A stretch of 45,266 nt of DNA. Source: a virus. The notes below the pieces were generated by a model. It did no database searches. It had not been told where the DNA came from and worked only from the letters and a program-made list of their open reading frames with translations. The stretch covers positions 1 to 45,266 of IMG/VR virus record IMGVR_UViG_3300046457_000247; one strand, given 5' to 3'. A program made the position numbers and the translations under genes. This document shows positions 108-45,194 of this stretch, in pieces (the first letter of the stretch is position 1; each line of letters opens with the position of its first letter).

Positions 108-1328
108 TTACCAAGAAATCAAAAATGCGTTCTGCCCGGCGCTCGCGACGGCATCGGTTGGTATCTTGCGCAGCAGGATCGGTGATGTGCCGGTATTCGC
201 GTTCACTGCGTCTGACATGAACACCGGAGAGTCGGACGCCTTACCCGCGTAGTAGAGGTCGCCGTTATCCCGCAGCATATACAGCCCATCGGGTGTAGCC
301 TCGACCCACTTCCAGCTATAATTGAGCCCATTGTCGAGCGATGCTGGTGCGGTGCCGGTGCTCGCATAGCTTGTCAGCCAAGCCGCCCGTCCATCGGCAT
401 TGTTTCCGACGAAAAACGCCCGTCCGTCTGTTTTCAGGATGTACCCGGTGTCGAGGTAACCACTGATCGCTGCCCAATCGGTGTCGGTGCCAATCTGAAT
501 AAAGGTCGTCTGCGATCCGGATATGGTGCCGTTTCTGTTGAAACCGTAGTTGTTCGTCCCACAGGCCCATAGCGTGCCATTTGACTTAATCGCCAGCGTG
601 TTGGTGCTAAAACAGTAGACCTTGGCCCAGTCGGTATCGCCCCCAACCTGCGTTGCCGTGCCGGTGGTGCCCGTGGTCAGGTTTAGACCATTCTTGCCGC
701 TCAGGTTGCTGCCCCACGCCCACATCGTGCCGTCCGACCGTACGGCCATGGCGTGGTTCGATGTGCTGGTGCCGTTGGCGGAGTGGACATCCAACCACGT
801 CGTGCTGCCGTTCAACCGGGTTGGGACAAGATAGTTGCCCGAGGCCAGACCGTTGCCGAACCGTCCGGCCGCGATACCACCGACCCCCCACATGCTGCCG
901 TCGCTCTTGAGCAGAAAAGCCGCGTTCTGGAAGACCGAAACGACCTTGACCCAATCCGAGTCGGTGCCGACCCGAGTTGGCTGAAAAAACGACGCCGAAG
1001 AACCGAGTCCCAACTGGCCGTTATAGTTAACCCCCCACACCCAAAGGCTACCATCTGTCAGTACGGCGTATCCCGCCGAGTAGATGTAGGACGAATTGGA
1101 TTTGGTGACGGCGAGACATTTTGCAGTCTTGTTCGCTATCGAAATGACGCCCCGGCGCGGGAGGTCGGACCGGTTGGCCTTGCCGCTCAAGGCTCCGATA
1201 GAATCATCCCCGATGCCAAAGACGCCGTGCTGGCAGGGCCAGAAACCGTTGGACTTCAGATAATGCACCTCGTCCACCGTGAAAATGCCTTTTTGAAGCA
1301 GCGCGCCCCTTTCGATGCTGGTATGCAT
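108..1328 (-). CDS. RCC1-repeat beta-propeller protein, probable tail-tip adhesin
   Basis: 406 residues. From about residue 85 onward it carries some six or seven repeats with the RCC1 pattern, for example DGSLWVWGVNYNGQLGLG, DGTMWAWGSNLSGKNGL and NGTLWACGTNNYGFNRNG, each followed by a Q-x-G-x-D-x-DW segment. RCC1 repeats build a seven-bladed beta-propeller used for protein or ligand binding. The N-terminal 80 residues lack the repeat and may attach it to the virion. Its ATG overlaps the TAA of the preceding gene by one base (TAATG), and it ends inside the ribosome binding site of the next gene, so it belongs to the tail-fibre operon. Role as a receptor-binding or fibre-tip component is inferred from position. 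The fold call is fairly secure. Confidence 0.8.
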   Translation of the reverse strand: MHTSIERGALLQKGIFTVDEVHYLKSNGFWPCQHGVFGIGDDSIGALSGKANRSDLPRRGVISIANKTAKCLAVTKSNSSYIYSAGYAVLTDGSLWVWGVNYNGQLGLGSSASFFQPTRVGTDSDWVKVVSVFQNAAFLLKSDGSMWGVGGIAAGRFGNGLASGNYLVPTRLNGSTTWLDVHSANGTSTSNHAMAVRSDGTMWAWGSNLSGKNGLNLTTGTTGTATQVGGDTDWAKVYCFSTNTLAIKSNGTLWACGTNNYGFNRNGTISGSQTTFIQIGTDTDWAAISGYLDTGYILKTDGRAFFVGNNADGRAAWLTSYASTGTAPASLDNGLNYSWKWVEATPDGLYMLRDNGDLYYAGKASDSPVFMSDAVNANTGTSPILLRKIPTDAVASAGQNAFLISW

Positions 1329-20258: not shown

Positions 20259-20771
20259 TCAGGCCCTCACGATCCTGACCTGACCATTGGCACGACCGCG
20301 CAGGATCGGAGCCAGCAGGAGATCGACTTTTCTGTTCAGCGACGGACTGGTGGTCGTTGCACCAAAATATTCTTTTTCTTCTTCCATCGTGTCGAGCTTG
20401 ACCCGAACTTTCTTAAGCTGGGTGTCGGCGCTGGCGTTCTGCACCAGTGCGGCGCTGCCGTTCTTCAAATACTGGTAAGCCAGTTCGAACACGGCCTTCT
20501 TCAGTTCAGACGGAATGCCGCTGCGGGTAAAGCCGTTGCGGTCGGTGAACGAAACGCGCGGGAACAGAAGGCTTTGGGTGGCGGTCAGCGGGGTGCCGAG
20601 GAAGCGGGCACCGTAGAGCAGATCGACGCTCTGCGTCGCGTTCAGCAGGGCGGGCTCAGAGTCATACCAGTCGAACACACCGAGCATGGCAAAGTAATCG
20701 CTGGCCTCTTCGAGACTAACGTACGAATTGGCACCAACTACACCAGTGCCCGTTTCAAGAATGATCGCCAT
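20259..20771 (-). CDS. Head-tail connector adaptor protein (probable)
   Basis: 170 residues. It begins MAIILETGTGVVGANSYVSLEEASDYFA and continues with the LLNATQSVDLL, QSLLFPRVSF and IPSELKKAVFELAYQYL segments. This combination is typical of the gp6/DnaT-like adaptor proteins that bind the portal ring and lead to the tail. It is the first gene after the capsid gene. No TAAATA motif was found before it; a hairpin at 20811-20835 separates it from the capsid gene, so it may depend on read-through. Confidence 0.7.
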   Translation of the reverse strand: MAIILETGTGVVGANSYVSLEEASDYFAMLGVFDWYDSEPALLNATQSVDLLYGARFLGTPLTATQSLLFPRVSFTDRNGFTRSGIPSELKKAVFELAYQYLKNGSAALVQNASADTQLKKVRVKLDTMEEEKEYFGATTTSPSLNRKVDLLLAPILRGRANGQVRIVRA

Positions 20772-25675: not shown

Positions 25676-25971
25676 GGGGCTTCGTCCCGGATGATCACGG
25701 CACCGGTCATCGTCATCGCCGCCACCTCGAACTTCAGCTTGGGGAAGAAGAACGAAAGTTTGCGGGCGAGCAAAAAGGCCGACCCGGAATTCGAGAAAAC
25801 GTTCCTGAGATATTTTGGTCCGAGCGGTTTCAGGCTGTCCTTGAGGCAGTAGTTGAAGGGCTGCCCGCCGCACAACACAGCGAAATACGCGGGTGCCTCG
25901 TACAATTCGCGGCTGATTTCGGGTCTGTCCGGAATGATCGCGGATGCTATGATGCGGGCCTTTGGCCTCAT
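25672..25971 (-). CDS. Unknown small protein, terminase operon
   Basis: 99 residues from ATG 25971, overlapping the TGA of the gene upstream (ATGA). It begins MRPKARIIASAIIPDRPEIS and contains a hydrophobic segment, AYFAVLCGGQPFNY, and a basic cluster, LLARKLSFFFPKLKFEVA, near the end. I do not recognise it. It is the second of four chained genes ending in the large terminase. It is probably cytoplasmic, since the hydrophobic runs are short. Confidence 0.6.
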   Translation of the reverse strand: MRPKARIIASAIIPDRPEISRELYEAPAYFAVLCGGQPFNYCLKDSLKPLGPKYLRNVFSNSGSAFLLARKLSFFFPKLKFEVAAMTMTGAVIIRDEAP

Positions 25972-26327
25972 TGTAATGCCTCCAATAGCTGGCAGTGAAA
26001 TAACTTGAACATGGCGGCGTGGCTGCGATGCTTGAACCAAGCGTTGACCCGCTTGCGGCCGGTCGTAGGGTAGGTAAAGGCGAGCGTTGACGGATACCGC
26101 GCCGGGGTATGGGCCTCGATGAACGGAACCAAATAGTCCTGCTCGATGGTGCGCAGAACCAGTGCATCGATCAGCGGTATCTGGTGACAGAAATTGGCCC
26201 AGCGGCTCGACACCGTGCCGATCTTGCAATGAGTGAACCGGGCGGTGGTCGCCTCGATGGCGAGAAACCGAGTATGGTAGATCGGCATCAGCGGCACCGA
26301 GACGCGATAGGTGAACGGCCCCTTCAA
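25968..26327 (-). CDS. Unknown protein with AAMFKLF tail
   Basis: 119 residues if it begins at TTG 26327. No good ribosome site precedes this TTG and an internal ATG (residue 14) is possible, so the start is uncertain. The perfect late promoter TATAAATA (26358-26365) lies 31 bases upstream. Near the C-terminus it has HRSHAAMFKLFHCQ, resembling the A-x-x-FKL-x-W tail of several other small proteins in this window. It overlaps the next gene by four bases (ATGA). Function unknown. Confidence 0.5.
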   Translation of the reverse strand: MKGPFTYRVSVPLMPIYHTRFLAIEATTARFTHCKIGTVSSRWANFCHQIPLIDALVLRTIEQDYLVPFIEAHTPARYPSTLAFTYPTTGRKRVNAWFKHRSHAAMFKLFHCQLLEALQ

Positions 26328-26990: not shown

Positions 26991-27287
26991 TCAATTTCCC
27001 CAAAAAAGCTTGAACAGGCAGGCGTCGGCATCGGTCTCGAAGTCGAAATGCGCCACGTACTCGTCAATCACGGCGATCTTATCGATGGTTCGGTTCCAGT
27101 AGACCCACACGGCGGGATCAAGCCCGTTTTCGTAGAGCCAGTGCCAAAGTTCCTGAGACAAAAGATTGAGATAGCATTGCTGCTCGACCGCCGACACCGG
27201 CCGGTCACGGAAACCCGGCCCGCCAACCATGCCATGGTGTACGATGGACCGGTAGTAACACTGGATCATCACGGTAAAGGCGTTCAT
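26991..27287 (-). CDS. Small unknown protein, FKL-tail family
   Basis: 98 residues. It is mostly beta and helix with many aromatics (QELWHWLYENGLDPAVWVYWN) and ends FETDADACLFKLFWGN. This DA-x-LFKL-x-W ending recurs in at least four other small genes here. The predicted ATG is only about six bases past a TAAATA motif at 27293-27300, which would give a leaderless or nearly leaderless transcript, or the motif is not used. Function unknown. Confidence 0.6.
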   Translation of the reverse strand: MNAFTVMIQCYYRSIVHHGMVGGPGFRDRPVSAVEQQCYLNLLSQELWHWLYENGLDPAVWVYWNRTIDKIAVIDEYVAHFDFETDADACLFKLFWGN

Positions 27288-27331: not shown

Positions 27332-27745
27332 ATGGCCTATTACCCTTGTCCAATCAGAGACTTCGTGTTAAGGTGGCAAAAGGTTGTGGGAAAATTACAA
27401 GAGCACGCGACAGAGATGAAGGTAAGAGATCGAGGAACATTCGCGACGGCGCTGCCAACTGGACGCTATGTCGGAGCCTCTGAACTGCTGGTAGACAAGA
27501 CTTTTCATGTGGTCAGCGTCATCTGTACTCAGGATGAGCGCAACGATCTCGAAAAATGGCTATATGACCATTACGACTGTAGGATGGAACCTTTCTACGA
27601 GTTCACCTACGGCATGCGCCGCCACGAGGCCCGCTGCGCCATGACGACGGTGCCCACGACTATCGATAAGGACTGCGTGCGCTACATCGTGCTGTTCAGC
27701 CACGAGCACGAGTTGGAGGAGTTCGTTCGAAAGTTCAGCCAATGA
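27332..27745 (+). CDS. Small unknown protein
   Basis: 137 residues. No close ribosome binding site precedes ATG 27332; an AGGAG lies 17 bases upstream. The sequence is basic at the start and ends VRYIVLFSHEHELEEFVRKFSQ, a strand-turn-helix that resembles the tails of the other small genes here but without FKL. It overlaps the following gene by four bases (ATGA). It lies divergent from the minus-strand gene at 26991-27287. Function unknown. Confidence 0.6.
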   Translation: MAYYPCPIRDFVLRWQKVVGKLQEHATEMKVRDRGTFATALPTGRYVGASELLVDKTFHVVSVICTQDERNDLEKWLYDHYDCRMEPFYEFTYGMRRHEARCAMTTVPTTIDKDCVRYIVLFSHEHELEEFVRKFSQ

Positions 27746-28005
27746 CGGCGGAATTCTGGTGGCTACAGGAGGTGAAATGGCGGGTCGAGCGCGACCGCAT
27801 CGCTCACGATGAACGCATGGTCCTGAAAGAGTTCGGCCACGTCGTCGTCATTTGGGATGACTACCGCGAAGCGCTGGAGTGGTGCCATACCAGCGCCGGG
27901 GAATTCGGGATTGACTGGGTGTGCGGCCTGTCAGGGCGGAACTGCGGGTCCTTCGCCTTCAAGGATATGGGGAAAGCCGCCCTGTTCAAGCTGCTCTTCA
28001 CATAA
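27742..28005 (+). CDS. Small unknown protein, FKL-tail family
   Basis: 87 residues, start overlapping the preceding stop (ATGA). It contains EFGHVVVIWDDYREALEWCH and ends SFAFKDMGKAALFKLLFT, the A-x-LFKL-type tail. The last eight bases overlap the end of the convergent gene at 27998-28321. Function unknown. Confidence 0.6.
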   Translation: MTAEFWWLQEVKWRVERDRIAHDERMVLKEFGHVVVIWDDYREALEWCHTSAGEFGIDWVCGLSGRNCGSFAFKDMGKAALFKLLFT

Positions 28006-28462: not shown

Positions 28463-28675
28463 TTAGCACCAAAATGTCTTGAACAGGACGGCGATTTTGT
28501 CGTCCCATATGATGTAGCGACGGCAGCCCATCTCCACCGGCTGGCTTCGAACCCCCAAGTCTTCCAGCCAGTCGGCGGCATCGTTGCGGAACTGGGTGTT
28601 CTGCATGGGCTCGCGCAGGACGATCTGCTTGGGGGTGCGGTCGAAGAAGAAGATCAGCGTCGGCCGGTAAGTCAT
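28463..28675 (-). CDS. Small unknown protein, FKL-tail family
   Basis: 70 residues. It begins MTYRPTLIFFFDRTPKQIV and ends RRYIIWDDKIAVLFKTFWC, a variant of the LFKL-x-W-C tail seen in its neighbour at 28677-29045. The start lies one base after that neighbour's stop, so the two are likely co-translated. Function unknown. Confidence 0.6.
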   Translation of the reverse strand: MTYRPTLIFFFDRTPKQIVLREPMQNTQFRNDAADWLEDLGVRSQPVEMGCRRYIIWDDKIAVLFKTFWC

Positions 28676-28676
28676 G

Positions 28677-29045
28677 TCAGCACCAAGTCAGTTTGAACAG
28701 GGTGGCTTCGGACAGGTCTTCGAACAAAATTATCCGGCTGGTGCGGATCGTCATCTGGAGAAGGTCGTCGCCATCGTCGTCGTCACCATAGGTCCACAGG
28801 GCCGGGCTGATGGCGAATTCTCGTTCACAGCGATCACCCAGCCACATCACCATGTCGCCGAAGTTGGTGTCCGGCCGGGCGTGGATGTTCGCCAGCGGCG
28901 CACAGGCTTCGGTGATCGTGATCCGGTGGGGCAGATAGTGGAAGCGCTGCTCGAACTCTTGCAGGCGGGAGGCGTTGGCGCGCTTCTTGGCGTCGAGAAC
29001 GTCTTGGCAGACGGTGGCGGACAGGGTGGGGACAGGGTTGGGCAA
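28677..29045 (-). CDS. Small unknown protein, FKL-tail family
   Basis: 122 residues from a TTG at 29045 with GGAG seven bases upstream. It carries an acidic stretch, GDDDDGDDLLQ, near residue 90 and ends FEDLSEATLFKLTWC. The F-x-D-x-x-x-A-x-LFKL-x-W pattern is the clearest member of the repeated tail. It heads a four-gene minus-strand cluster running to the membrane proteins. Function unknown. Confidence 0.6.
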   Translation of the reverse strand: MPNPVPTLSATVCQDVLDAKKRANASRLQEFEQRFHYLPHRITITEACAPLANIHARPDTNFGDMVMWLGDRCEREFAISPALWTYGDDDDGDDLLQMTIRTSRIILFEDLSEATLFKLTWC

Positions 29046-29718: not shown

Positions 29719-30183
29719 TCAACCCTCGTCGTCGTCGTCCGGTAGGTCGATGATGGTGGCCTGCTGGTCTAGCTGGGCGAAGGGGTTGGGTAGCTGGGGC
29801 GTCACGTCCTTGGCGTCAAGCTGGGTGAACATATGCGGGGCTTCGCCGTTGCCCATCACAATACTGATGGTGTGCGTCGTCGTGCTGGTGGTGTCCACGC
29901 TCTTCTTCTCGGCGTGCTTCCTCTTGAGCAGCATGTCGATATAGCCCTTCTGCTGGGCCGGGTCCTCCAGCTTGGTGACGATCAGCATGGCGTGGATTGC
30001 CGGGTCGTACTCCATGAAGTCACAGATTTCATCGAAAGACTTGCCTTGGAGCTTGCGGCACATGGCGCGCAGTTCTTTGTTGGCCTCTTCGACGGCGTTC
30101 TCTTTGGCTAGTGTCTTCTTAGTCTTCTTCCCTGCTGGCATTCCTCCGCCACGATTGGGATCAAACCCCTTTTTGAAAGCCAT
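29719..30183 (-). CDS. Possible small terminase subunit
   Basis: 154 residues from ATG 30183 (AGGAG twelve bases upstream); a longer frame begins at 30249 but would overlap the promoter motif. It begins MAFKKGFDPNRGGGMPAGKK, then a charged helical region (ENAVEEANKELRAMCRKLQGKSFDEICDFM is the most ordered part), and ends with an acidic tail, LPDDDDEG. Small terminases often have a basic/helical N-terminal part and an acidic C-terminus, and a late promoter motif precedes it, but it is 4 kb from the large subunit and no DNA-binding motif is certain. Confidence 0.45.
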   Translation of the reverse strand: MAFKKGFDPNRGGGMPAGKKTKKTLAKENAVEEANKELRAMCRKLQGKSFDEICDFMEYDPAIHAMLIVTKLEDPAQQKGYIDMLLKRKHAEKKSVDTTSTTTHTISIVMGNGEAPHMFTQLDAKDVTPQLPNPFAQLDQQATIIDLPDDDDEG

Positions 30184-30252
30184 TACTTGTTCAAACTCCT
30201 CGAATACTTGGAACGAATACTTTGAGTGCGGCCGACGCCGATTAAGCACGAC

Positions 30253-30260
30253 TATTTAGG
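30253..30260 (-). promoter_or_regulatory. Late promoter motif CCTAAATA
   Basis: The complement reads CCTAAATA, 70 bases before ATG 30183. Confidence 0.5.
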
Positions 30261-30571
30261 CATAGATGGTCATAGACCAAAATAATCGACAGAAAATCTC
30301 ACAAAATCGCATTTTTCTCTTGACAACCATGAAAAAAAAAGGCCCCCATTTTTGTCTCAATACTGTCTCACTCGTTAATGAAACCTTGCGATTACTATAG
30401 CCTAATCGTCTCCAAATCGCTCCGCGTCTTGACGATGGCTCTATAGTCCCGAACGATCTCTTGCTTCTACCTCTTTCATCCAGTCAGGCATCCAGCCCGA
30501 AATTTCTGTTTACACGTGTACCCAGTGCTGCTACTGTTCGGCCCATGGCAACGTTTACGGAGGGTTGTAGG
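30261..30571. other. Divergent intergenic region before the eight-gene operon
   Basis: No gene is seen. It contains a palindrome, TACACGTGTA (30511-30520), whose extended form ACACGTGTACC recurs at 45173-45183, and a weak sigma70-like pair (TTTACA at 30509, TACTGT at 30532, 17-base spacing) for the plus-strand operon. An isolated TTGACA at 30320-30325 has no matching -10. Confidence 0.4.
30511..30520. promoter_or_regulatory. Candidate operator TACACGTGTA
   Basis: It overlaps the weak -35 of the promoter for the 30.6 kb operon. The same 11 bases, ACACGTGTACC, lie in the promoter spacer of the minus-strand gene at 44862-45137. Confidence 0.45.
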
Positions 30572-30937
30572 ATGGTTGAGTTTTCTGATCTGACGGTGAT
30601 CGCGGCGGATGTTCCCGCCTACAGGGTTCCTGAACGGTTCGGGCGCGACGACATCGAGATCAGCGCCAACCATGGCCCGCGCCCTCTCGAAGACACCACC
30701 ATGGAGTTCCGGCGCATGGTCGCGACGCGCCAGTGCATCGCTGGCAACAAGATCGCTGCGATGTCGGTGCACATCTCGGTGGTCACTCCCGCCGAACTGA
30801 TCCAGATATTGTCGCTCGGTGTTCAGCCCTATGCCATGATGCCCTACGAGGTTTGGGAGAATATCCTGCTGGTGTCCAAGCGCGACGACGGCTACTGCCA
30901 GTACACCTTCTTCAACATGCTGGGCGAGGTGGTGTGA
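30572..30937 (+). CDS. Unknown protein, first of an eight-gene operon
   Basis: 121 residues from ATG 30572 (GGAGG eight bases upstream); a longer frame from 30461 has no site and crosses the promoter. It begins MVEFSDLTVIAADVPAYRVP and ends with a strand YCQYTFFNMLGEVV. Its stop TGA overlaps the next start (TGATG). Function unknown. Being first and behind the ACACGTGTACC motif, it may be the most regulated member. Confidence 0.6.
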   Translation: MVEFSDLTVIAADVPAYRVPERFGRDDIEISANHGPRPLEDTTMEFRRMVATRQCIAGNKIAAMSVHISVVTPAELIQILSLGVQPYAMMPYEVWENILLVSKRDDGYCQYTFFNMLGEVV

Positions 30938-31380
30938 TGGACCAGACCAGCCACACCAGCGAGCGCTGCGAGCAGATGTTCAAGCTGCTCATGCCCTTCC
31001 TCAAGGTCTTCGAGGGGGAAAATCTGGAGAAGTACAAGGTTCGCTACGAAGTTCCCTTCGCGCCTGATGTCGTGATCGTCGGCCATGGCGTCCTTCATAG
31101 CGGCGACAGCGACGACCCGAAGTTCAATCCGAACGATGAGATGGTGTACTACGCCATCACCTTCACCGGCAAGGATTTCGAATTCGTCGTAGCGCTGGTT
31201 CTGACGGAAGTTCTGGTGGCGAATTTCATGATGGGCGACGAGGGCAACTGCTACTGGTCCAGCAATCTCGATCCCATGCACTGTGTGTTTGCGCGGGGCG
31301 GTGTCGAGGAGTTCAAGGGCTTCGCGGCGATCTGGAAGCTGTCCGGTAACGAGGTCGTTGTTGTCGAGGAGGTGGCGTGA
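30937..31380 (+). CDS. Unknown protein, operon gene 2
   Basis: 147 residues. The ATG overlaps the preceding TGA. The body has alternating strands (VVIVGHGVLHSGD, VYYAITFTGKDFEFVVAL) and ends with GNEVVVVEEVA. A YYAITF...FEFVVALVL pattern resembles the ferredoxin-like strand layout of its operon neighbours. I do not recognise it. It is coupled to both neighbours by TGATG overlaps. Confidence 0.6.
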   Translation: MDQTSHTSERCEQMFKLLMPFLKVFEGENLEKYKVRYEVPFAPDVVIVGHGVLHSGDSDDPKFNPNDEMVYYAITFTGKDFEFVVALVLTEVLVANFMMGDEGNCYWSSNLDPMHCVFARGGVEEFKGFAAIWKLSGNEVVVVEEVA

Positions 31381-32132
31381 TGCCCGCCTTCACCCATCGC
31401 AAGTCCCCAGTCGAGTACCACCTGCTTGATGTGGACCGGTGGAACGGCATCGAGGTGTCCGGCTACTATCGGCCCAACTATGGCACGCTGGTCTGCAACG
31501 TCTGCTACGCCAAGCCGCCGCATTTCGAGGCGTTCATGGCCGATGTCATGGCGTGGTTCCACAGTCATGGTGTTCCGGTGTTCGATGTCGATTTCGCCCG
31601 GCCGGTTCCTTCGGTTCTGATGGGGGTGTATCACGTCGAGTCCACGGCGCAGTATTCCGGCAGCTATCGCTTCGAAATGCAGGCGGTGACGGATGGGGTG
31701 GCGTCGCCGCTGCTCGATCAGTTCATGACCTTTCTGGCTCCCAACTTCTTCCAAGTGTTCGTCGGGCGGGAGTTGTGGGAAAAGGATATTCCCTCGGATG
31801 CCGTGGTGGTCGCGATGGAGGACGACATCGAGGGGGTGTGCCGGAAGCACGAGATCGCGGTCCGCTACTACCGGAACTTCGAGCGCGGCGTTGCTGGCGA
31901 CGCCATGGTGGATGTGGTCAGTGAGCAGCGCGGGATTGCCAAGAACCGGATCAACCTGTTCGCGGTCGCGGCGTCCGATCTGATCCTCCTGCGCAGTGCC
32001 GTCCCGGTGTTCCGGGCCATCGAGTACCGTCAGTACCTTGCCTGTCGGATGAGCGGCCGGGTGCGCGGCAAGATGAACCGGAAGGCCATCGCCGACGAGT
32101 TCCGGGCGTATTTTAGTCAGGGAGATTTGTGA
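31380..32132 (+). CDS. Unknown protein, operon gene 3
   Basis: 250 residues from ATG 31380; the GTG one codon earlier is unlikely. It is about twice the length of its neighbours and may contain two similar domains: an N-terminal part with PHFEAFMADVMAWFHSHGV and a second with ASPLLDQFMTFLAPNFFQVF. A basic C-terminal segment, MSGRVRGKMNRKAIADEF, follows. No catalytic motif was seen. Overlaps both neighbours by single-base TGATG junctions. Confidence 0.6.
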   Translation: MPAFTHRKSPVEYHLLDVDRWNGIEVSGYYRPNYGTLVCNVCYAKPPHFEAFMADVMAWFHSHGVPVFDVDFARPVPSVLMGVYHVESTAQYSGSYRFEMQAVTDGVASPLLDQFMTFLAPNFFQVFVGRELWEKDIPSDAVVVAMEDDIEGVCRKHEIAVRYYRNFERGVAGDAMVDVVSEQRGIAKNRINLFAVAASDLILLRSAVPVFRAIEYRQYLACRMSGRVRGKMNRKAIADEFRAYFSQGDL

Positions 32133-32464
32133 TGTTCCGCATTGCCACCGATGTGCCGGAGGAGATCGTAGAGGAAGTGGACCGGCTGCGCTATACACTG
32201 GGCATGGTCGAGGCCAAAACCTCCTTTGAGTCTCCGCATCTGGAGTTCCTGAAGGAGAAGTCGTTGGAGATCATCGACCACTTCTCCTATGGCGCTTCCC
32301 TTCGTTGGTTTAATCGCTCGATCCCTCGGAGCATCGAACTCGATAGCAAGCCGTCCGTGGTGTGGGATGATCCGCCCTACATGATCTTCTCGTTCAGTTC
32401 CAAGGAGGAGGCGACCACGGCCTTCATGTTCATGCCACCAGAGATCAACGCACGGGTGTTGTGA
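32132..32464 (+). CDS. Unknown protein, operon gene 4
   Basis: 110 residues. It ends YMIFSFSSKEEATTAFMFMPPEINARVL, a strand-helix-strand resembling the tails of the small FKL proteins (F-S-x-x-x-A-x-x-AF) but without FKL. The N-terminal half is an acidic helix, VPEEIVEEVDRLRYTLGMV. Coupled by TGATG overlaps at both ends. Function unknown. Confidence 0.6.
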   Translation: MFRIATDVPEEIVEEVDRLRYTLGMVEAKTSFESPHLEFLKEKSLEIIDHFSYGASLRWFNRSIPRSIELDSKPSVVWDDPPYMIFSFSSKEEATTAFMFMPPEINARVL

Positions 32465-32889
32465 TGACCGACCAGATGTTTTACCAGTTCAATATCCTCC
32501 TGCCCAAGGAGGTTCGCCTTAGCTGGATTTCGCTCAAGGACCAGTTGGTTGATCCGTTGCGGACGGTTCTGACTGAGCAGGATTTCCAGTGGGCGACGAA
32601 GAACCGGGGGTTCAAGCAGCCGACCGAGCAGTACATTCGGGCGGTTGAGCGGATGTGCGTCGGCCGGGCGCTGCGTCACTGGTGGGATGCCAAGAACAGC
32701 GGTATCACCGCCTCTTTTCGTCCGTGGCCGCACTTCGGGCGCGATAGGAATTGGGAGACGGAGCCGGAGCTTGCCTACATGTACCTTCGCGACGACGATG
32801 AGGCGGTAAAGGCCATGTTGTTCTTGGAGGATGGCCTGCTCCATATGGACGTTGGTTTTCGCGACGGCGAGATCGAGTATCTGTTCTAA
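32464..32889 (+). CDS. Unknown protein, operon gene 5
   Basis: 141 residues. Features include YQFNILLPKEVRLSWISLKD at the start, a central helical segment and a C-terminal ELAYMYLRDDDEAVKAMLFLEDGLLHM, another strand plus D-D-x-A-x-x-A-x-LF segment like its neighbours. It begins by TGATG overlap and ends twelve bases before the next start, the only real gap in this operon. Function unknown. Confidence 0.6.
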   Translation: MTDQMFYQFNILLPKEVRLSWISLKDQLVDPLRTVLTEQDFQWATKNRGFKQPTEQYIRAVERMCVGRALRHWWDAKNSGITASFRPWPHFGRDRNWETEPELAYMYLRDDDEAVKAMLFLEDGLLHMDVGFRDGEIEYLF

Positions 32890-32901
32890 AAGGGGGTGGT
32901 G

Positions 32902-33384
32902 ATGAAAAGTCCAAAGATGATCTTGGTGCGGTTCAGCATGAGCGACAACATGCTGCCGCCTGACGGTATCCGGGTCAAGGTCCGGCATGGCCGGGTCGAG
33001 GAGTTGGATCATCCGATGGTCGAGTGCGAGTTCCTGCGCGATGAGGTCGAGCCGGACTGGCAGGGGCGGATCGATCCCGATGCGGTGATGCGCGAGTTCG
33101 CCGGGTGGATCGCCCGGCATTTCCCTCGGCGGGTCAAGAACAGTCCGTTCGAGGACAATGCCCGCTTCGAGTTCCATGGCCGGGTGCCGAAGGAGAATGT
33201 GACCGAAAGCTTCTTCCTGACGATCCTGCTGGCGCGCGACACCGATACGGCGGTAATCCGTGATCTGATCTTGCGCTCGGGCGGGCGGCTGGTGGACGAT
33301 GATCAGGGGGTCGATCTCGATGATGAGGACGATTTGGGCGACGGCCAGCGCCGGGCGTCGTCTCTGGATGATGAGGACGAGTGA
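32902..33384 (+). CDS. Unknown protein with acidic tail, operon gene 6
   Basis: 160 residues from ATG 32902 (AAGGGGG just upstream; in-frame GTGs precede it). The core includes MILVRFSMSDNMLPPDGIRV and SFFLTILLARDTDTAVIRDLILRSGG, a strand-helix unit. The last 35 residues are very acidic (DDDQGVDLDDEDDLGDG). Such tails occur on DNA-mimic or chaperone-like phage proteins, but that is only a suggestion. It overlaps the next gene (TGATG). Confidence 0.6.
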   Translation: MKSPKMILVRFSMSDNMLPPDGIRVKVRHGRVEELDHPMVECEFLRDEVEPDWQGRIDPDAVMREFAGWIARHFPRRVKNSPFEDNARFEFHGRVPKENVTESFFLTILLARDTDTAVIRDLILRSGGRLVDDDQGVDLDDEDDLGDGQRRASSLDDEDE

Positions 33385-33719
33385 TGACTATTTTCAACGA
33401 TTTGATGTACTGCGAGACCGCTGCCGAGGCCAAGCGCATCTATGAGGTGCTGCTGGGGAAGGCCACCAAGGAGAACGCCAAGCCGGTCGAGGCGCGGTAT
33501 GGCGATGAGGTTGACGACCAGTTCGAGAGCTACGTCGCCGACATGGAGGGCGCGCTGCGCGAGAACGACAACAACCTCAACCGCTCGGTGGACTGGGATG
33601 ATTTTTCCAATCCCCCGGCGTTCGAGGCGCTGTTTCTGGACAAAGGCGGCGACTGCTTCTGCCGGGTGATGGGGGAGTTGCAGTTGCGCGAGTATCCGGA
33701 CCTAGTGAAGCAGGATTGA
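33384..33719 (+). CDS. Unknown protein, operon gene 7
   Basis: 111 residues. It begins MTIFNDLMYCETAAEAKRIYEVL, has an acidic middle (DMEGALRENDNNLNRSVDWDD) and a C-terminal PAFEALFLDKGGDCFCRVMG. No recognised motif. The start and stop both overlap neighbours by TGATG. Function unknown. Confidence 0.6.
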   Translation: MTIFNDLMYCETAAEAKRIYEVLLGKATKENAKPVEARYGDEVDDQFESYVADMEGALRENDNNLNRSVDWDDFSNPPAFEALFLDKGGDCFCRVMGELQLREYPDLVKQD

Positions 33720-34096
33720 TGGTCGAGGAGTATGCCGTCACCGTGGTGCCGCCGCGCTCCGCCCAGCAGCAGGTGGCGTTCGCCCAGCGCGTGCTGGACC
33801 GCTACATGGACCTGAAGCCTGCCAAGGACAGGACGGGTCCCAAGCGCTCTGCGGTGGCCTATGGAGGGCTTCTGGCGGCGGCGCAGGTGCAGGCCATGCT
33901 CGACTGGTTCGAGGCACTGGGGCACCGTCTGCCGCCCTCTGGCGTGCGTGCCGTGGTCGCCCAGTACAGCGTCAGCGGGCCTGTCACATTTTACTTTGAG
34001 GACAAGGCCGAGGCTGCGAAACTAAAAGTGGTGGTGCCGTTCAATCACCTGATGCCGACGCCGCCGTTCGATCCGGCCTACACGGTGGCGGGCTGA
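33719..34096 (+). CDS. Unknown protein, last gene of the operon
   Basis: 125 residues. It has a helical first half (QQVAFAQRVLDRYMDLKPAK, AAAQVQAMLDWFEALGHRL) and a strand plus F-x-D-x-A-x-A-x-LK segment, PVTFYFEDKAEAAKLKVVVPF, close to the FKL-tail pattern. It ends the chain of TGATG-coupled genes; a weak hairpin follows at about 34103-34116. Function unknown. Confidence 0.6.
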   Translation: MVEEYAVTVVPPRSAQQQVAFAQRVLDRYMDLKPAKDRTGPKRSAVAYGGLLAAAQVQAMLDWFEALGHRLPPSGVRAVVAQYSVSGPVTFYFEDKAEAAKLKVVVPFNHLMPTPPFDPAYTVAG

Positions 34097-34259: not shown

Positions 34260-35072
34260 ATGCCTGTCACGACTATTCGTTCCAATCAACTGGATTGGGA
34301 TGTCTTCAATGGCCTGATCGACAATCTCCGTCAAGACGATATCCCGGTTCTGGTTCAGCAAGTTGACAAGCTGGACGAGACGATTACCCGGATCGCCGCC
34401 AAGCTGTTTCTCGCGGATCGGACGGCAGAACTCGGTGGGTTTCACGCCGATTTGGTCTCCAAGGTCGAGCGCATCGCCAAGAACAAACCCTACGCCCACA
34501 AGCTGGTTGTCTACGGTATCCACATCGATACCGACGCCAAGTTCGACCGGCTGCTGCACGATCAGATTGCCAATATCACCTCTATCTTGGGAGTTCTGAT
34601 CAAGCAGTATCCGCCGAGCACCGAAGTGCCTGATCTCGATGATGTTATCAAGTACATCGAGCGGCGCGGCGGATTGGGGGAGTTTCGGGCCGAGTGGAAG
34701 TCCATCACGTCCAAAGAGGGGCGTCTGCTGGTCGAAGCCAGCCGGGAACAACTCACCACCCTGAACGAAGTTGAGGCCATGAAGCTTGAACTGGCCCAGT
34801 TCAAGGCTCGGGAGCTTCAAATCTCCGTCGATGAGTACAAGGCCCTAGAAGCTGAGGAAAAAGCCCTCCGGGCGAAGCAGGAGTTCAACGAGCAGTTCCT
34901 TGAGGTCGGGCGCACCATCGTTAAGAACGGCACCAAGGTGAAGGAGCGAGACGCGGAGGACAACAAGCTCTACGTCTACTTGGATGGCGTCCTGTACGAG
35001 CCTGATCATCTCGACAAGGAGAAGATCATCGGGGCGTTCTTCCATCAACGCCGCCGACGCGCTGCTTCCTAA
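34260..35072 (+). CDS. Unknown coiled-coil protein
   Basis: 270 residues with a good ribosome site (GGAAGG) before the ATG. It is largely helical: about residues 20-60 (IDNLRQDDIPVLVQQVDKLD), and a long charged coiled coil from about 155 to 220 (NEVEAMKLELAQFKARELQ, EEKALRAKQEFNEQFLEVG). The end is basic (FFHQRRRRAAS). It stands between the eight-gene operon and a strong terminator, so it is probably its own unit or the operon end. Function unknown. Confidence 0.65.
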   Translation: MPVTTIRSNQLDWDVFNGLIDNLRQDDIPVLVQQVDKLDETITRIAAKLFLADRTAELGGFHADLVSKVERIAKNKPYAHKLVVYGIHIDTDAKFDRLLHDQIANITSILGVLIKQYPPSTEVPDLDDVIKYIERRGGLGEFRAEWKSITSKEGRLLVEASREQLTTLNEVEAMKLELAQFKARELQISVDEYKALEAEEKALRAKQEFNEQFLEVGRTIVKNGTKVKERDAEDNKLYVYLDGVLYEPDHLDKEKIIGAFFHQRRRRAAS

Positions 35073-35089: not shown

Positions 35090-35126
35090 CCCACGGGCTT
35101 CAGCGATGAAGCTCGTGGGCTTTTTT
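35090..35126 (+). terminator. Strong terminator after the coiled-coil gene
   Basis: A 13-base-pair stem with one G-U pair (35090-35102 with 35107-35119), a GCGA loop, then C and six T. A second ATG (35106) that would extend the next gene lies in its loop and is unlikely to be used. Confidence 0.9.
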
Positions 35127-35141
35127 GCTTGGAGGGTCATT

Positions 35142-36635
35142 ATGGGGCACTGGGTGCGGGACGACGAAGTTATACGAAAACTGGCTGAAAAATGGGGATC
35201 GGCCAGAGACTTCACCAACGCTTACATCACCAGAAATGAAAAAGGACTCCGCTACGTCACTTACTGGTGCAACGATCACGGCGGCAACGTGACGCAGCTT
35301 GTTGGCAATTGCCTGAGCAACAATTTCGGCTGCATGATCTGCCGGGGCAAGTGGATGACCCACGATAAACTGATCGAGCAGTTCCGGGAGGCCAATCCTG
35401 CCGAGGACGGTCGATGGCCGTGCGGTTACGACCGGGTAGTTTACGTAAACGATAAGAAGAAGGTGGAGATAGAATGTTTGCGCGATCCCCGCCACGGTGT
35501 GTTCAAAAAGTCCCCGAGTGACCATAAGCAGGGTAAAGGCTGCCCAAAGTGTGGGAAGCGGAGGATGGGTCCGACAAAAAGCTCCAACTGGCTGCACCTG
35601 ATCACCTTTGAGGACTTCGTTACAATGGCCGTCGAAATTTATGGCGACGCCGATGGCTACGACGACGTTCCTCGCGACATGGAGTTCTGGAGCGTTGATG
35701 TGCCGATCTTGTGCGGGACGTGCAGCAAGGTATATCTCCGGAGACCAAGGGAGTACCTGATTGAAAGGAAAGGCTGCCCGGATTGCCGGATCGATCCTCG
35801 CGTCCTCCCCCATCATGTTTGGGTTGAACGCCTTCGTGCCGTCAAGGGCAACCAGTTCGACTACACCCACTCCGTCTTCGGCGCGACTGCTGATAAGTTC
35901 ACCGGTCACTGCTTCAAACACAACGGGCCGTTTACCATGACGCTCGCAGATCATTACTATAACGGTAGTGGTTGCCCGGTATGCGCCGGGGTCGTCTGGA
36001 ACGACGATTATATCATCAAAGAGGGAGAGCGGCTTCACGTGGACGAGAACGGCGTGCCCTTGTACGGGTACTGGAAGGTTCGCGATGTGAAAAGCAAGAA
36101 GGACGACATCACGCTGTGGTGCAAGTACCACAGGGAGTATTTCACGGTGGGCTGCGAGGGCCATATCCATCCAGTTCGCAAATATGGGTGCAAGAAGTGC
36201 GGCAATCATCGGTCAGTGGCGCATCACTACCGCACGCCCGCGCACAAGGCGACCCTGCTGGCGTCAGTTCACGGTGACTTCCACTACGACTGGTCCAACA
36301 CCAAGTGGGGCAATGCCTTCAAGAAGATCAAGGTCGGATGCAACGTCCACGAAAAGGAGTTTCCGACGACCTACCGGGACCATTTTCACCGCAAGTCCGG
36401 TTGTCCGGACTGCGCGATCCTGCGGGCAGGAGCAAATCAGTCCGGCGTCAGCGAGCAGGTTGCTCACATACGCTCGCTGTTCCCGATCAAGTCACAGGAG
36501 GATTTGGAATACCTTCGTGGCTTGGTTCGGTCCGGGATCACGAGACCATCTCAGATCACCCTACCGGCGTCACAGAGCGACCTGTCATTTTCATCTAACG
36601 AACCAAAGTCGGAAGCATTTTATCTAAAGTCGTAG
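35142..36635 (+). CDS. Protein of six tandem zinc ribbons, nuclease domain absent
   Basis: 497 residues from ATG 35142 (GGAGG six bases upstream). It holds six units of the form C-x2-H-x-x-F-x(n)-GCP-x-C: WCNDHGG...GCMIC, CLRDPRHGVF...GCPKC, LCGTC...GCPDC, HCFKHNGPF...GCPVC, WCKYHREYF...GCKKC and GCNVHEKEF...GCPDC. In phages such zinc-ribbon repeats usually precede a small homing-type nuclease. Here the C-terminal 70 residues after the last ribbon show no nuclease motif (no H-N-H, GIY or PD-D/E-x-K pattern). It may be a truncated or domain-less homing protein, or a nucleic acid-binding protein in its own right. Confidence 0.75.
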   Translation: MGHWVRDDEVIRKLAEKWGSARDFTNAYITRNEKGLRYVTYWCNDHGGNVTQLVGNCLSNNFGCMICRGKWMTHDKLIEQFREANPAEDGRWPCGYDRVVYVNDKKKVEIECLRDPRHGVFKKSPSDHKQGKGCPKCGKRRMGPTKSSNWLHLITFEDFVTMAVEIYGDADGYDDVPRDMEFWSVDVPILCGTCSKVYLRRPREYLIERKGCPDCRIDPRVLPHHVWVERLRAVKGNQFDYTHSVFGATADKFTGHCFKHNGPFTMTLADHYYNGSGCPVCAGVVWNDDYIIKEGERLHVDENGVPLYGYWKVRDVKSKKDDITLWCKYHREYFTVGCEGHIHPVRKYGCKKCGNHRSVAHHYRTPAHKATLLASVHGDFHYDWSNTKWGNAFKKIKVGCNVHEKEFPTTYRDHFHRKSGCPDCAILRAGANQSGVSEQVAHIRSLFPIKSQEDLEYLRGLVRSGITRPSQITLPASQSDLSFSSNEPKSEAFYLKS

Positions 36636-36698
36636 TAGTTGGTTCCGGGGAGTGTTGGTACGGTGCACCAGTTCAATCGTCAACAAGGAATTTGGTTC

Positions 36699-37604
36699 AT
36701 GCGTATCGCACTCCTCGCTTCCGTCGCTCTGATCGGTCTCTCGTTCCCGGCATCGGCGCAGGTTCTAAGCCCCGCTCCTTCTGTCGCCAACAACGACGGC
36801 ATGATGACCCAGTACGGGTCCAGCAACACCTTCATCGGCAGCCAGTCCGGTAAGGACAACTACAGCAGCCAGATTCAAGGCAGCCAGTTCGCCACGGTGA
36901 CCGAAGCTCGGGGCGAAGTGACACAGACCGGCAACTGGAACCAGTCCACGCAGTTGCAGCGGTCCAACTACGACCTTGCCAAGACCATCCAGACCGGCAA
37001 TACCAACGAGTCGATCATCTCGCAGGATCGCAGCGTCGATGGCCGCAACACCAGCCTGACCACACAGACCGGCGATCTGAACAAGGTCGAAACCAAGCAG
37101 CAGGATGGAGGCTCGAACCGGTTTGAATCCACGCAGATCGGCAACAAGAACAACATCTTCTCTTACCAGATCAGCAAGTCCAACCTCGCCTACATCGATC
37201 AGAACGGCGACGAAAACAAGGCGACCGTTTGGCAGTACATGGGCGGCAATAACACCACCGACGCCACGCAGAACGGCAACAAGAACACCATCAACGTGAA
37301 GCAGGGGGAGAGCCGGAGCGACCGCTGGAACACCCCGCTGAACAACAGCACCTATCTGACGCAGACCGGCAATTCGAACATCATCACGGTCGAGCAGCTT
37401 GGCACCAGCAGCGGGGCGAACATCTACCAGACCGGCAACAACAACATCGGGTCCGTCTGGCAGTACAGCGGTACGGCTAATCAGGCGACGATCACACAGA
37501 ATGGCGACATGAACCACGGCAGCGTCAGCCAGCAGGGCAGCAAGGACTGGGGCCGCATCTATCAGCAGGGCTACGACAACGCGGCCCACATGACGCAGAA
37601 GTAA
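36699..37604 (+). CDS. Secreted curlin-repeat (CsgA/CsgB-like) protein
   Basis: 301 residues from ATG 36699 (AAGGA nine bases upstream). The first 20 residues, MRIALLASVALIGLSFPASA, are a Sec signal peptide with an A-S-A cleavage site. From about residue 35 on there are roughly a dozen repeats with the curlin pattern Q-x-G-x-x-N, such as TQTGNWNQS, IQTGNTNES, TQTGDLNKV, QNGNKNTI, TQTGNSNII, YQTGNNNIG and TQNGDMNHG, with some degenerate units (QQGSKDWG, QQGYDNAA). Curlin subunits form extracellular amyloid fibres. Host-like moron, or a phage surface protein; no CsgE/F/G partner genes are in the window. Strong terminators stand before (35090) and after (37632) this section. Confidence 0.8.
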   Translation: MRIALLASVALIGLSFPASAQVLSPAPSVANNDGMMTQYGSSNTFIGSQSGKDNYSSQIQGSQFATVTEARGEVTQTGNWNQSTQLQRSNYDLAKTIQTGNTNESIISQDRSVDGRNTSLTTQTGDLNKVETKQQDGGSNRFESTQIGNKNNIFSYQISKSNLAYIDQNGDENKATVWQYMGGNNTTDATQNGNKNTINVKQGESRSDRWNTPLNNSTYLTQTGNSNIITVEQLGTSSGANIYQTGNNNIGSVWQYSGTANQATITQNGDMNHGSVSQQGSKDWGRIYQQGYDNAAHMTQK

Positions 37605-37631
37605 GCCATTCCCGACAATTTGAGCCGTCTT

Positions 37632-37668
37632 GGCCCCGTCAGAGAAATCTGGCGGGGCCGTCTTTTTT
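37632..37668 (+). terminator. Strong terminator after the curlin-like gene
   Basis: A twelve-base-pair stem (GGCCCCG, T-G pair, CAGA; 37632-37643 with 37648-37659), a GAAA loop, then GTC and six T. Confidence 0.9.
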
Positions 37669-38985: not shown

Positions 38986-39491
38986 GCGATCTGCGGGAGG
39001 CTCCAGATCGTGGCGTAGTCGATCAGGCGGCAGGGCACACTGTAGACGACACCGTTGTTGGCAGTGTGCCCCAAGGGAGGCACCGTGCTGTGGGCGAGGA
39101 AGTCGGCCTTGCTGATCCAGCCGACATGCCAGCCCCATATCGCGCGCGGATCGCTTTGCGTGAAGGCATAGGAGTCGGTCTGCTGGGTGTTGTTGATGAT
39201 CACGGCGTCGAAACTGGGCGCGGGCTGCTGAACCCGATCCTTCGCTTTGACATCGGCCGTGACCATGACGCCGTTGGGCAGGATCACCTCGTAGTCGTAC
39301 TGGAACCCATTGACGCGGGTGAACGACAGACCTTTGTGCTTCAGGTATGCCTCGAACAATTCCTCGCCGAGGAATCCCTGAAAGTTCCTGTGTCCCCCAG
39401 TGTAGCTGTTCGGTAGGGTTCCCATGGCGTTGGCGGCATTGAGCGCGCGGGTCCGCATGGCCTGATCGATAGCGATTTTCATGGCGGTCAT
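38982..39491 (-). CDS. PD-(D/E)XK-like nuclease (candidate)
   Basis: 169 residues from ATG 39491, overlapping the preceding stop (ATGA). Candidate active-site elements: GFLGEELFEAYLKHKG near residue 40 (acid in the first helix), FQYDYEVILPNGV near residue 70, and VTADVKAKDR near residue 83, with the D-x-K pair of the core strand. This order (E, D, then D-x-K) fits the restriction endonuclease-like fold. No specific subfamily is recognised. It is oriented against the neighbouring replication-type gene and shares the last four bases (CTAG) with it. Confidence 0.5.
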   Translation of the reverse strand: MTAMKIAIDQAMRTRALNAANAMGTLPNSYTGGHRNFQGFLGEELFEAYLKHKGLSFTRVNGFQYDYEVILPNGVMVTADVKAKDRVQQPAPSFDAVIINNTQQTDSYAFTQSDPRAIWGWHVGWISKADFLAHSTVPPLGHTANNGVVYSVPCRLIDYATIWSLPQIA

Positions 39492-39754
39492 GCGAACACC
39501 AGCTTGCAAAGGGCTGCGTCCTGCTGGTCCCAAAACGCGATCCAGCCGTTCTCGTGCGAGTAGGGGATGGCGTTCTCGTCATCCTCGTCCTGCTCCTCGT
39601 CCATGCCCATGAACCAACCGAAGTAATTTCCTCGGCAGGCGCGCAGGAAGTCGCTGAGTTCGGTGCTGAGCGTAATATCTTCGCAGTCGTTGCAGGGGCG
39701 GGCGTAGCCCTCATAGTGGTCCGAGCCGACCTTGACCCGGTAAATCTTACTCAT
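39488..39754 (-). CDS. Small acidic protein, FKL-like tail
   Basis: 88 residues from ATG 39754 (AAGG upstream). It begins MSKIYRVKVGSDHYEGYARP, has CNDCED, an acidic stretch (MDEEQDEDDENAIPYS) and ends NGWIAFWDQQDAALCKLVFA, a variant of the A-x-LFKL tail with Cys in place of Phe. Its stop overlaps the nuclease candidate's start (ATGA). A weak promoter (TTGCAG, 18 bases, TATATG) is seen upstream at about 39790-39820. Function unknown. Confidence 0.6.
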   Translation of the reverse strand: MSKIYRVKVGSDHYEGYARPCNDCEDITLSTELSDFLRACRGNYFGWFMGMDEEQDEDDENAIPYSHENGWIAFWDQQDAALCKLVFA

Positions 39755-39863
39755 AGCAAAAGCGCCTTTCGTGGGTAGGAGCCCCATATACCACTTTGTT
39801 CGTTCGGCCTGCAATATCTGGTTGCGCTGGGTGATGGCGTCGGCTAGGGAGGCGGCGGGTACG

Positions 39864-39933
39864 GGGCTACGACAATGACAGCAGAAGCGTGTTGCCAGCC
39901 TGTTTACCAAATAGCCTTCACGGGCTACGACAA
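39864..39933. repeat. Two outlying copies of the array hairpin motif
   Basis: GGGGCTACGACAA ends one copy (39863-39875) and a stem-loop AGCC-TTCACG-GGCT followed by ACGACAA forms the second (39912-39933). They lie 58 bases apart and in the opposite orientation to the array at 44392-44862. The first copy lacks a clear matching arm. Confidence 0.5.
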
Positions 39934-44861: not shown

Positions 44862-44862
44862 T
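44392..44862. repeat. Array of nine hairpins at about 59-base spacing
   Basis: Units begin CGTAGC at 44392, 44451, 44509, 44568, 44633, 44691, 44735, 44788 and 44847 (steps 59, 58, 59, 65, 58, 44, 53, 59). The consensus is TTGTCGTAGCCCC, a short loop, GGGGCT, TG. Both arms vary together: unit 7 has CCCCC with GGGGG-type pairing, unit 9 has a shorter CCC with GGG pair, unit 6 has AGCACC with a GGCGCT-type arm. The bases between units are 20-42 long and unrelated. The 5' flank TTGTCG is conserved. On the minus strand each unit reads stem-loop then CTACGACAA. Confidence 0.75.
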
Positions 44863-45137
44863 CAGACCCCGACCAACTCCCCCTCGAAGGCAGCCTGCTC
44901 GGCCTTGTTGGCGAACTTGACGTAGACCGAGAACGAACCGTCCAGTTCCTTGCTCCAGCCGTAGCTGAAGAAGCCGACGATGCGGCGGTCCAGCCACTCG
45001 CACAGGCCGCTGTTCTTGATCATGAACTGGGTGATGGCGTCCTCGCCGGTCGCGGTGCGGTAGCTGTCCACCGTGGTCGTGAAGGTCTCGGTGATGCCGG
45101 TGCCGATCTCGTCGTAGCGGTGCTTGTCCTTGCGCAT
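44862..45137 (-). CDS. Unknown protein, strand-helix tail
   Basis: 91 residues from ATG 45137 (GGAGG five bases upstream). It ends DGSFSVYVKFANKAEQAAFEGE, a strand-helix resembling the other small proteins' tails, without FKL. The stop codon is next to the last hairpin of the array, so the array is its 3' untranslated region when read in this direction. A sigma70-like promoter with an ACACGTGT core in the spacer lies upstream. Function unknown. Confidence 0.65.
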   Translation of the reverse strand: MRKDKHRYDEIGTGITETFTTTVDSYRTATGEDAITQFMIKNSGLCEWLDRRIVGFFSYGWSKELDGSFSVYVKFANKAEQAAFEGELVGV

Positions 45138-45166
45138 GTCGTCCTCCATCTCGTTGCCGTCAGACA

Positions 45167-45194
45167 AAGATAACACGTGTACCTATGGCGTCAA
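45167..45194 (-). promoter_or_regulatory. Sigma70-like promoter with embedded palindrome
   Basis: On the minus strand, TTGACG (45189-45194), 16 bases, TATCTT (45167-45172). The spacer holds ACACGTGT (45173-45180), shared with the 30.5 kb promoter. Confidence 0.5.

Follow-up and report, generated by a model that had tools for sequence, protein, structure and literature searches.

Tailed phages such as T4 and T7 possess clusters of small early genes devoted to host take-over and anti-defence. The locus studied here, an operon of eight genes (g1 to g8), lies in a virus record of 45,266 bases which was analysed at its full length and is referred to as the window. Like the T4 and T7 clusters, it consists of orphan genes which are small, evolve quickly and follow one another on the same strand. 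It differs from them in that its genes match no named family and in that a C-terminal module borne by at least one of its products, the FKL tail, is common to many genes of unrelated phages, while the profile of this module finds nothing in T4. Coupled operons of orphan phage genes as such are of an already known kind. A further point of comparison is Sinorhizobium phage Phosso (PV764938.1), whose FKL proteins, annotated as "hypothetical protein", possess the same C-terminal module as six clear members encoded in the window and whose FKL-tail genes are likewise small and often overlapping. Phosso, however, is a 469-kb jumbo phage as opposed to the present 45-kb siphovirus, and g8 and g4 of the latter have degenerate tails. 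The best sub-threshold match obtained with the operon proteins leads to P1 defence-against-restriction protein A, as 34 residues of g2 align to its DarA_N domain (PF18788; E 0.014, 15.7 bits compared to a cut-off of 27). Considering the low score and the short, local nature of this match within a protein of 147 aa we treated it as due to chance.

By its gene content the virus record represents a siphovirus genome. Its minus strand encodes the tail and head proteins and the packaging machinery, among them tip protein J, tape measure, major head protein, portal and terminase large subunit, while the replication genes are located on the plus strand. Positions 20300 to 45260 (25 kb) lack any near DNA match among 50,697 phage records, the terminase shares no more than 35% identity with known ones, and portal and TerL are without useful close relatives among viral contigs. 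The gene of an RCC1-repeat (beta-propeller) protein (108-1328, minus strand) closes the tail gene block.

The eight open reading frames between 30572 and 34096 on the plus strand are packed head to tail and show a codon-position GC pattern typical of real genes. The original prediction counted TGATG overlaps at seven of eight junctions. Eight genes, however, possess seven junctions, six of which indeed consist of a TGA stop codon sharing its A with the following ATG, while g5 and g6 are separated by a gap. Since only 82 of the 759 TGA triplets on the operon strand are part of a TGATG, this frequency greatly exceeds what chance would yield. At five of the six junctions the sequence is GTGATG, and the downstream gene could equally well start with GTG and overlap its predecessor by 4 nt (GTGA). 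In either case, overlapping stop and start codons, which characterise a translationally coupled operon, are present at six out of seven junctions. The products would be co-translated through stop-start re-initiation, aided at some junctions by a Shine-Dalgarno site inside the preceding gene. A fixed ratio of products, which had been deduced from this layout, does not follow from it, as overlap coupling alone sets no ratio and as the strength of the ribosome sites differs widely between the genes: the calculated duplex energies range from about -16 to -5.5 kcal/mol, with good sites at g2, g3 and g6 and poor ones at g5, g7 and g8.

Upstream of g1 the candidate operator, from which the original prediction derived a putative early or middle expression, could not be substantiated, the divergent spacer containing weak imperfect repeats only, and a sequence scan of this spacer found promoter matches to be no more frequent than in shuffled sequences. 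Downstream, a terminator scan yielded no noteworthy site between g8 and g9 and a strong terminator after g9. Since the latter is the first strong terminator-like site, a single transcript probably spans g1 to g9. We regard g1 to g8 as probably constituting one translationally coupled operon of small accessory proteins which probably extends to g9. The gene following the terminator (35142-36635, plus strand) encodes a protein which contains treble-clef zinc repeats and shows a relationship to HNH endonuclease families of phages (PHROG 681, E 2e-32; DUF4379). For this gene we prefer the ATG at 35142, which is preceded by GGAGGG, to the listed start at 35106, as a reading frame starting at the latter position would begin within the terminator hairpin. 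Further downstream (36693-37604, plus strand) a phage-borne protein with numerous curlin repeats (PF07012, E 1.3e-24) and an apparent signal peptide is encoded. The CsgB and CsgA models match it with E values of 7e-20 and 5e-18, yet below the model cut-offs. A curli-like secreted protein encoded by a phage looks unusual. Its gene is followed by a second strong terminator-like site (37631-37660, plus strand; 13-bp stem and T run).

The eight operon products contain no recognised domain, a statement of the original prediction which holds above cut-off in Pfam, PHROGs and NCBIfam. In the same three collections none of them matches a known anti-defence or host-inhibitor family, and none matches a PHROG structural family. 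Scans of viral contigs, which detect close relatives only, provided no relatives of g2, g3 and g6; tblastn against phage records provided none of g2, g3, g5, g6 and g8, and among bacterial genomes none was obtained for g3. Pairwise comparison revealed no paralogy above chance among g1 to g8 and no similarity between these proteins and those of the fetched FKL-tail arrays described below.

The FKL tail is a C-terminal strand-helix element with the consensus F-x-F-x-D-x-x-[DE]-A-x-L-F-K-L-x-W. Outside the operon, six small open reading frames of the window clearly carry it, ending in a manner resembling A-x-[LC]-F-K-L-x-W, and a profile derived from other phages only places exactly these six on top of all 357 open reading frames (E 2e-9 to 0.0076, calculated for a set of 3000). 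A first profile, built from the six window tails, did not clearly single out operon genes. In the ranking by the external profile the six clear members are followed by 44862-45176, g8, 27332-27745 and g4, and in that by an iterated profile by 27332-27745, g8, 44862-45176, g6, g4 and g3 (Table 1).

Table 1. Features of the operon, its flanks and the FKL-tail genes of the window. Values of p refer to the shuffle test with three models; E values refer to the profile from other phages (external) and to profile A1, built from 107 members.
Feature	Position	Strand	Description
Divergent spacer	30250-30571		between leftward gene 29719-30249 and g1; probable promoter region by gene orientation
g1	30572-30937	+	121 aa, orphan; no FKL-tail signal (p 0.32-0.39)
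g2	30937-31380	+	147 aa, orphan; TGATG overlap with g1; FKL-tail p 0.14-0.65, not significant
g3	31380-32132	+	250 aa, orphan; TGATG overlap with g2; weak FKL-family signal
g4	32132-32464	+	110 aa; TGATG overlap with g3; probable divergent FKL-family member (MIFSFSSKEEATTAFMFMP)
g5	32464-32889	+	141 aa, orphan; TGATG overlap with g4; weak FKL-tail signal, one model only
g6	32902-33384	+	160 aa, orphan; 12-nt gap after g5; weak FKL-family signal
g7	33384-33719	+	111 aa, orphan; TGATG overlap with g6; no FKL-tail signal (p 0.32-0.61)
g8	33719-34096	+	125 aa; TGATG overlap with g7; divergent FKL-tail member (VTFYFEDKAEAAKLKVVVP)
g9	34260-35072	+	270 aa, orphan; probably last gene of the g1-g8 transcript
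Intrinsic-type terminator	35090-35119	+	13-bp stem, then TTTTTT
Clear FKL-tail member	25968-26327	-	AAMFKLFHC; external E 1.7e-4; A1 E 1.2e-8
Clear FKL-tail member	26991-27287	-	ADACLFKLFWGN; external E 3e-9; A1 E 9e-12 (sequence included in A1)
Divergent FKL-family candidate	27332-27745	+	Trp helix present, tail degenerate; p 0.0015/0.0005/0.51; overlaps next gene by 4 nt
Clear FKL-tail member	27742-28005	+	KAALFKLLFT; external E 2.6e-7; A1 E 1.6e-9
Clear FKL-tail member	28463-28675	-	IAVLFKTFWC; external E 0.0033; A1 E 1.4e-7
Clear FKL-tail member	28677-29045	-	EATLFKLTWC; external E 2e-9; A1 E 7.6e-10
Clear FKL-tail member	39488-39910	-	DAALCKLVFA; external E 0.0076; A1 E 1.3e-7
Divergent FKL-family candidate	44862-45176	-	p 0.001/0.0005/0.17; hhalign rank 8 of 38

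Each protein was then compared with 2000 shuffled versions of itself using three models, with 20 genes of the same phage serving as controls (60 tests, lowest p 0.034). The module of g8 scores beyond its own shuffles in all three models (p 0.0005 each) and beyond the control genes. For g4, p amounts to 0.0035, 0.014 and 0.0015, for g3 to 0.023, 0.0055 and 0.68, for g6 to 0.053, 0.0075 and 0.65 and for g5 to 0.45, 0.46 and 0.026, while g1, g2 and g7 with p of at least 0.14 in all models give no signal of the family. In hhalign, g8 reaches an E value of 0.0007 and rank 6 of 38, above one of the clear members; g4, g3, g5 and g6 are not separated from the controls. The matches of both g4 and g8 lie near the C-terminus with the elements in the right order. 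In g8 the tail is degenerate, with F replaced by L and W by V, and both proteins look like those array members of other phages which lack the FKLxW letters yet retain an aromatic strand and the alanine. Profiles, shuffles and hhalign taken together, the strand-helix tail which the original prediction ascribed to several of the products is supported for g8, as judged from its sequence a divergent family member, and is probable for g4. The signals of g3, g5 and g6 are suggestive of membership, and in g1, g2 and g7 the tail was not seen.

Beyond this phage, a DNA pattern for the FKL ending identified 49 stretches in viral contigs, several of them with two or three copies. In the loci fetched on this basis the tail is present in 167 of 2911 open reading frames compared to 0.25 expected from shuffled tails, about 54 of the 167 being the pattern matches themselves. 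The same pattern led to 17 stretches in 84,980 bacterial and archaeal genomes; by the profile, members are present in only one of these stretches, which lies on a 64-kb contig of Pseudoroseomonas deserti. This contig (NZ_MLCO01000069.1; L083 and L093) harbours three FKL-tail genes and is probably a phage or prophage, as identical match scores recur in a 55.8-kb IMG/VR record. Within the class to which the Pseudoroseomonas genome belongs, any FKL-tail copy is present in 3 of 289 genomes. With profile A1, six of whose members originate from this window, individual IMG/VR records yielded 101, 82, 79, 62 and 53 copies, and 22 further records 2 to 66 copies each; these IMG/VR records were picked for holding the pattern, and the frequency of the family is not measurable from them. 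Phosso yielded 56 matches, Agrobacterium phage Atu_ph07 three weak ones, and seven control phages (phiKZ, T4, CcrColossus, phiM12, RHph_Y2_11, Kolga and Sf-CH5) contained no copies. None of the 107 A1 members matches PHROGs at E 0.01, and searching Pfam with them gave five isolated weak hits, each to a single member; the NCBIfam search covered, among the FKL-related queries, the operon proteins. Sequence comparison with solved structures gave no match to FKL-tail proteins, and no description of the tail was found in the literature searched, preprints and most subscription papers lying outside that search. Neither Pfam nor PHROGs contains the FKL-tail family, which we provisionally consider undescribed.

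We counted 263 FKL-family genes in 195 kb of array DNA, and in some records their density reaches one per 1-4 kb. Among 179 pairs of array neighbours on the same strand, a 4-nt overlap is present in 84 and a 1-nt overlap in 22, with the start nearest to the preceding stop taken for each gene, which favours overlaps. The arrays are thereby packed in the manner of the operon. In the IMG/VR records L054 and L058 (417 kb and 119 kb) 49 and 39 members, respectively, stand almost back to back in a partly common gene order. In these records two large FKL-tail arrays on opposite strands converge, and the strands of the matches suggest the same layout in two others. Copies common to different phages mostly show pN/pS values of 0.23 to 0.5 (between-record median 0.42, closest pair 0.23), so that they are kept by purifying selection. 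As the tail leucines make use of all six leucine codons, the constraint acts on the protein rather than on the DNA. A conservation at the DNA level, such as that of a recombination site, was ruled out since synonymous codons vary freely, and so was the idea that the conserved WGG ending serves as a ribosome site, the glycine codons mostly being GGT or GGC. Shine-Dalgarno-like content is moderately higher before overlapping genes (0.53 versus 0.35), which does not explain the tail.

The reading which we tentatively favour is that of a siphovirus accessory operon with small, fast-diverging products, some of which (g8, probably g4 and possibly up to five) belong to the FKL-tail family and which are likely host-directed. 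The FKL module would form the core of a small single-domain protein with the order helix-strand-strand-helix, as deduced from residue propensities only, while the remaining surface would diverge quickly, enabling each copy to bind its own target, most likely one of the host. The products may thus act as host take-over or counter-defence factors. This function class appears most plausible from the genomic setting, because the latter consists of dozens of small, diverging, coupled genes which are phage-borne and nearly absent from bacterial genomes. Less likely, in our view, is that the eight genes are unrelated orphan accessory genes without any common theme, packed for compactness, with the likeness of the g4 and g8 tails reflecting convergence on a common strand-helix pattern. 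The absence of pairwise similarity, the silence of g1, g2 and g7 in every model and the fact that hhalign singles out g8 only agree with this explanation. It hardly accounts for g8 and g4 scoring well above their own shuffles while 20 control genes do not, nor for the correctly ordered C-terminal position of both matches in a phage with six clear members. At the other extreme, all eight genes might stem from one FKL-tail family, the tail with its near-invariant lysine docking to a common partner and the variable remainder binding a different host protein in each copy. If true, this would provide the phage with a kit of interchangeable adaptors, existing in up to about a hundred versions in giant phages. 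As g1, g2 and g7 are free of signal and those of g3, g5 and g6 are weak, the operon as a whole is not one demonstrated family, and we regard this proposal as very improbable.

Two further explanations concern the site of action. The FKL-tail proteins, including those of the operon, might bind the phage's own nucleic acids as small RNA- or DNA-binding regulators of phage genes instead of addressing host targets. The tail lysine, present in 90% of 397 profile-selected members, exceeds what core packing needs, and the element order, predicted from propensity only, is compatible with a ferredoxin- or RRM-like domain. With up to 101 very different copies per phage, which are hard to square with one regulatory task, and with no similarity to any solved nucleic-acid-binding protein in the sequence search, we consider such a role improbable. 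Least probable of all seems late production of the products as minor components of the virion or as injected proteins: the operon is located on the strand opposite to the virion genes and co-directional with the replication genes, and no PHROG structural family is matched. In favour of such a function, g2 has its best Pfam match, though far below the cut-off, in the internal head protein family DarA_N of P1, and four of the clear FKL genes lie on the structural-gene strand adjoining the packaging genes.

Small orphan genes account for most of the unexplained coding capacity of phages. One module which links hundreds of such genes and is absent from PHROGs and Pfam offers a handle on this phage dark matter, and Phosso, being cultured and equipped with as many copies as given above, represents a ready test system.
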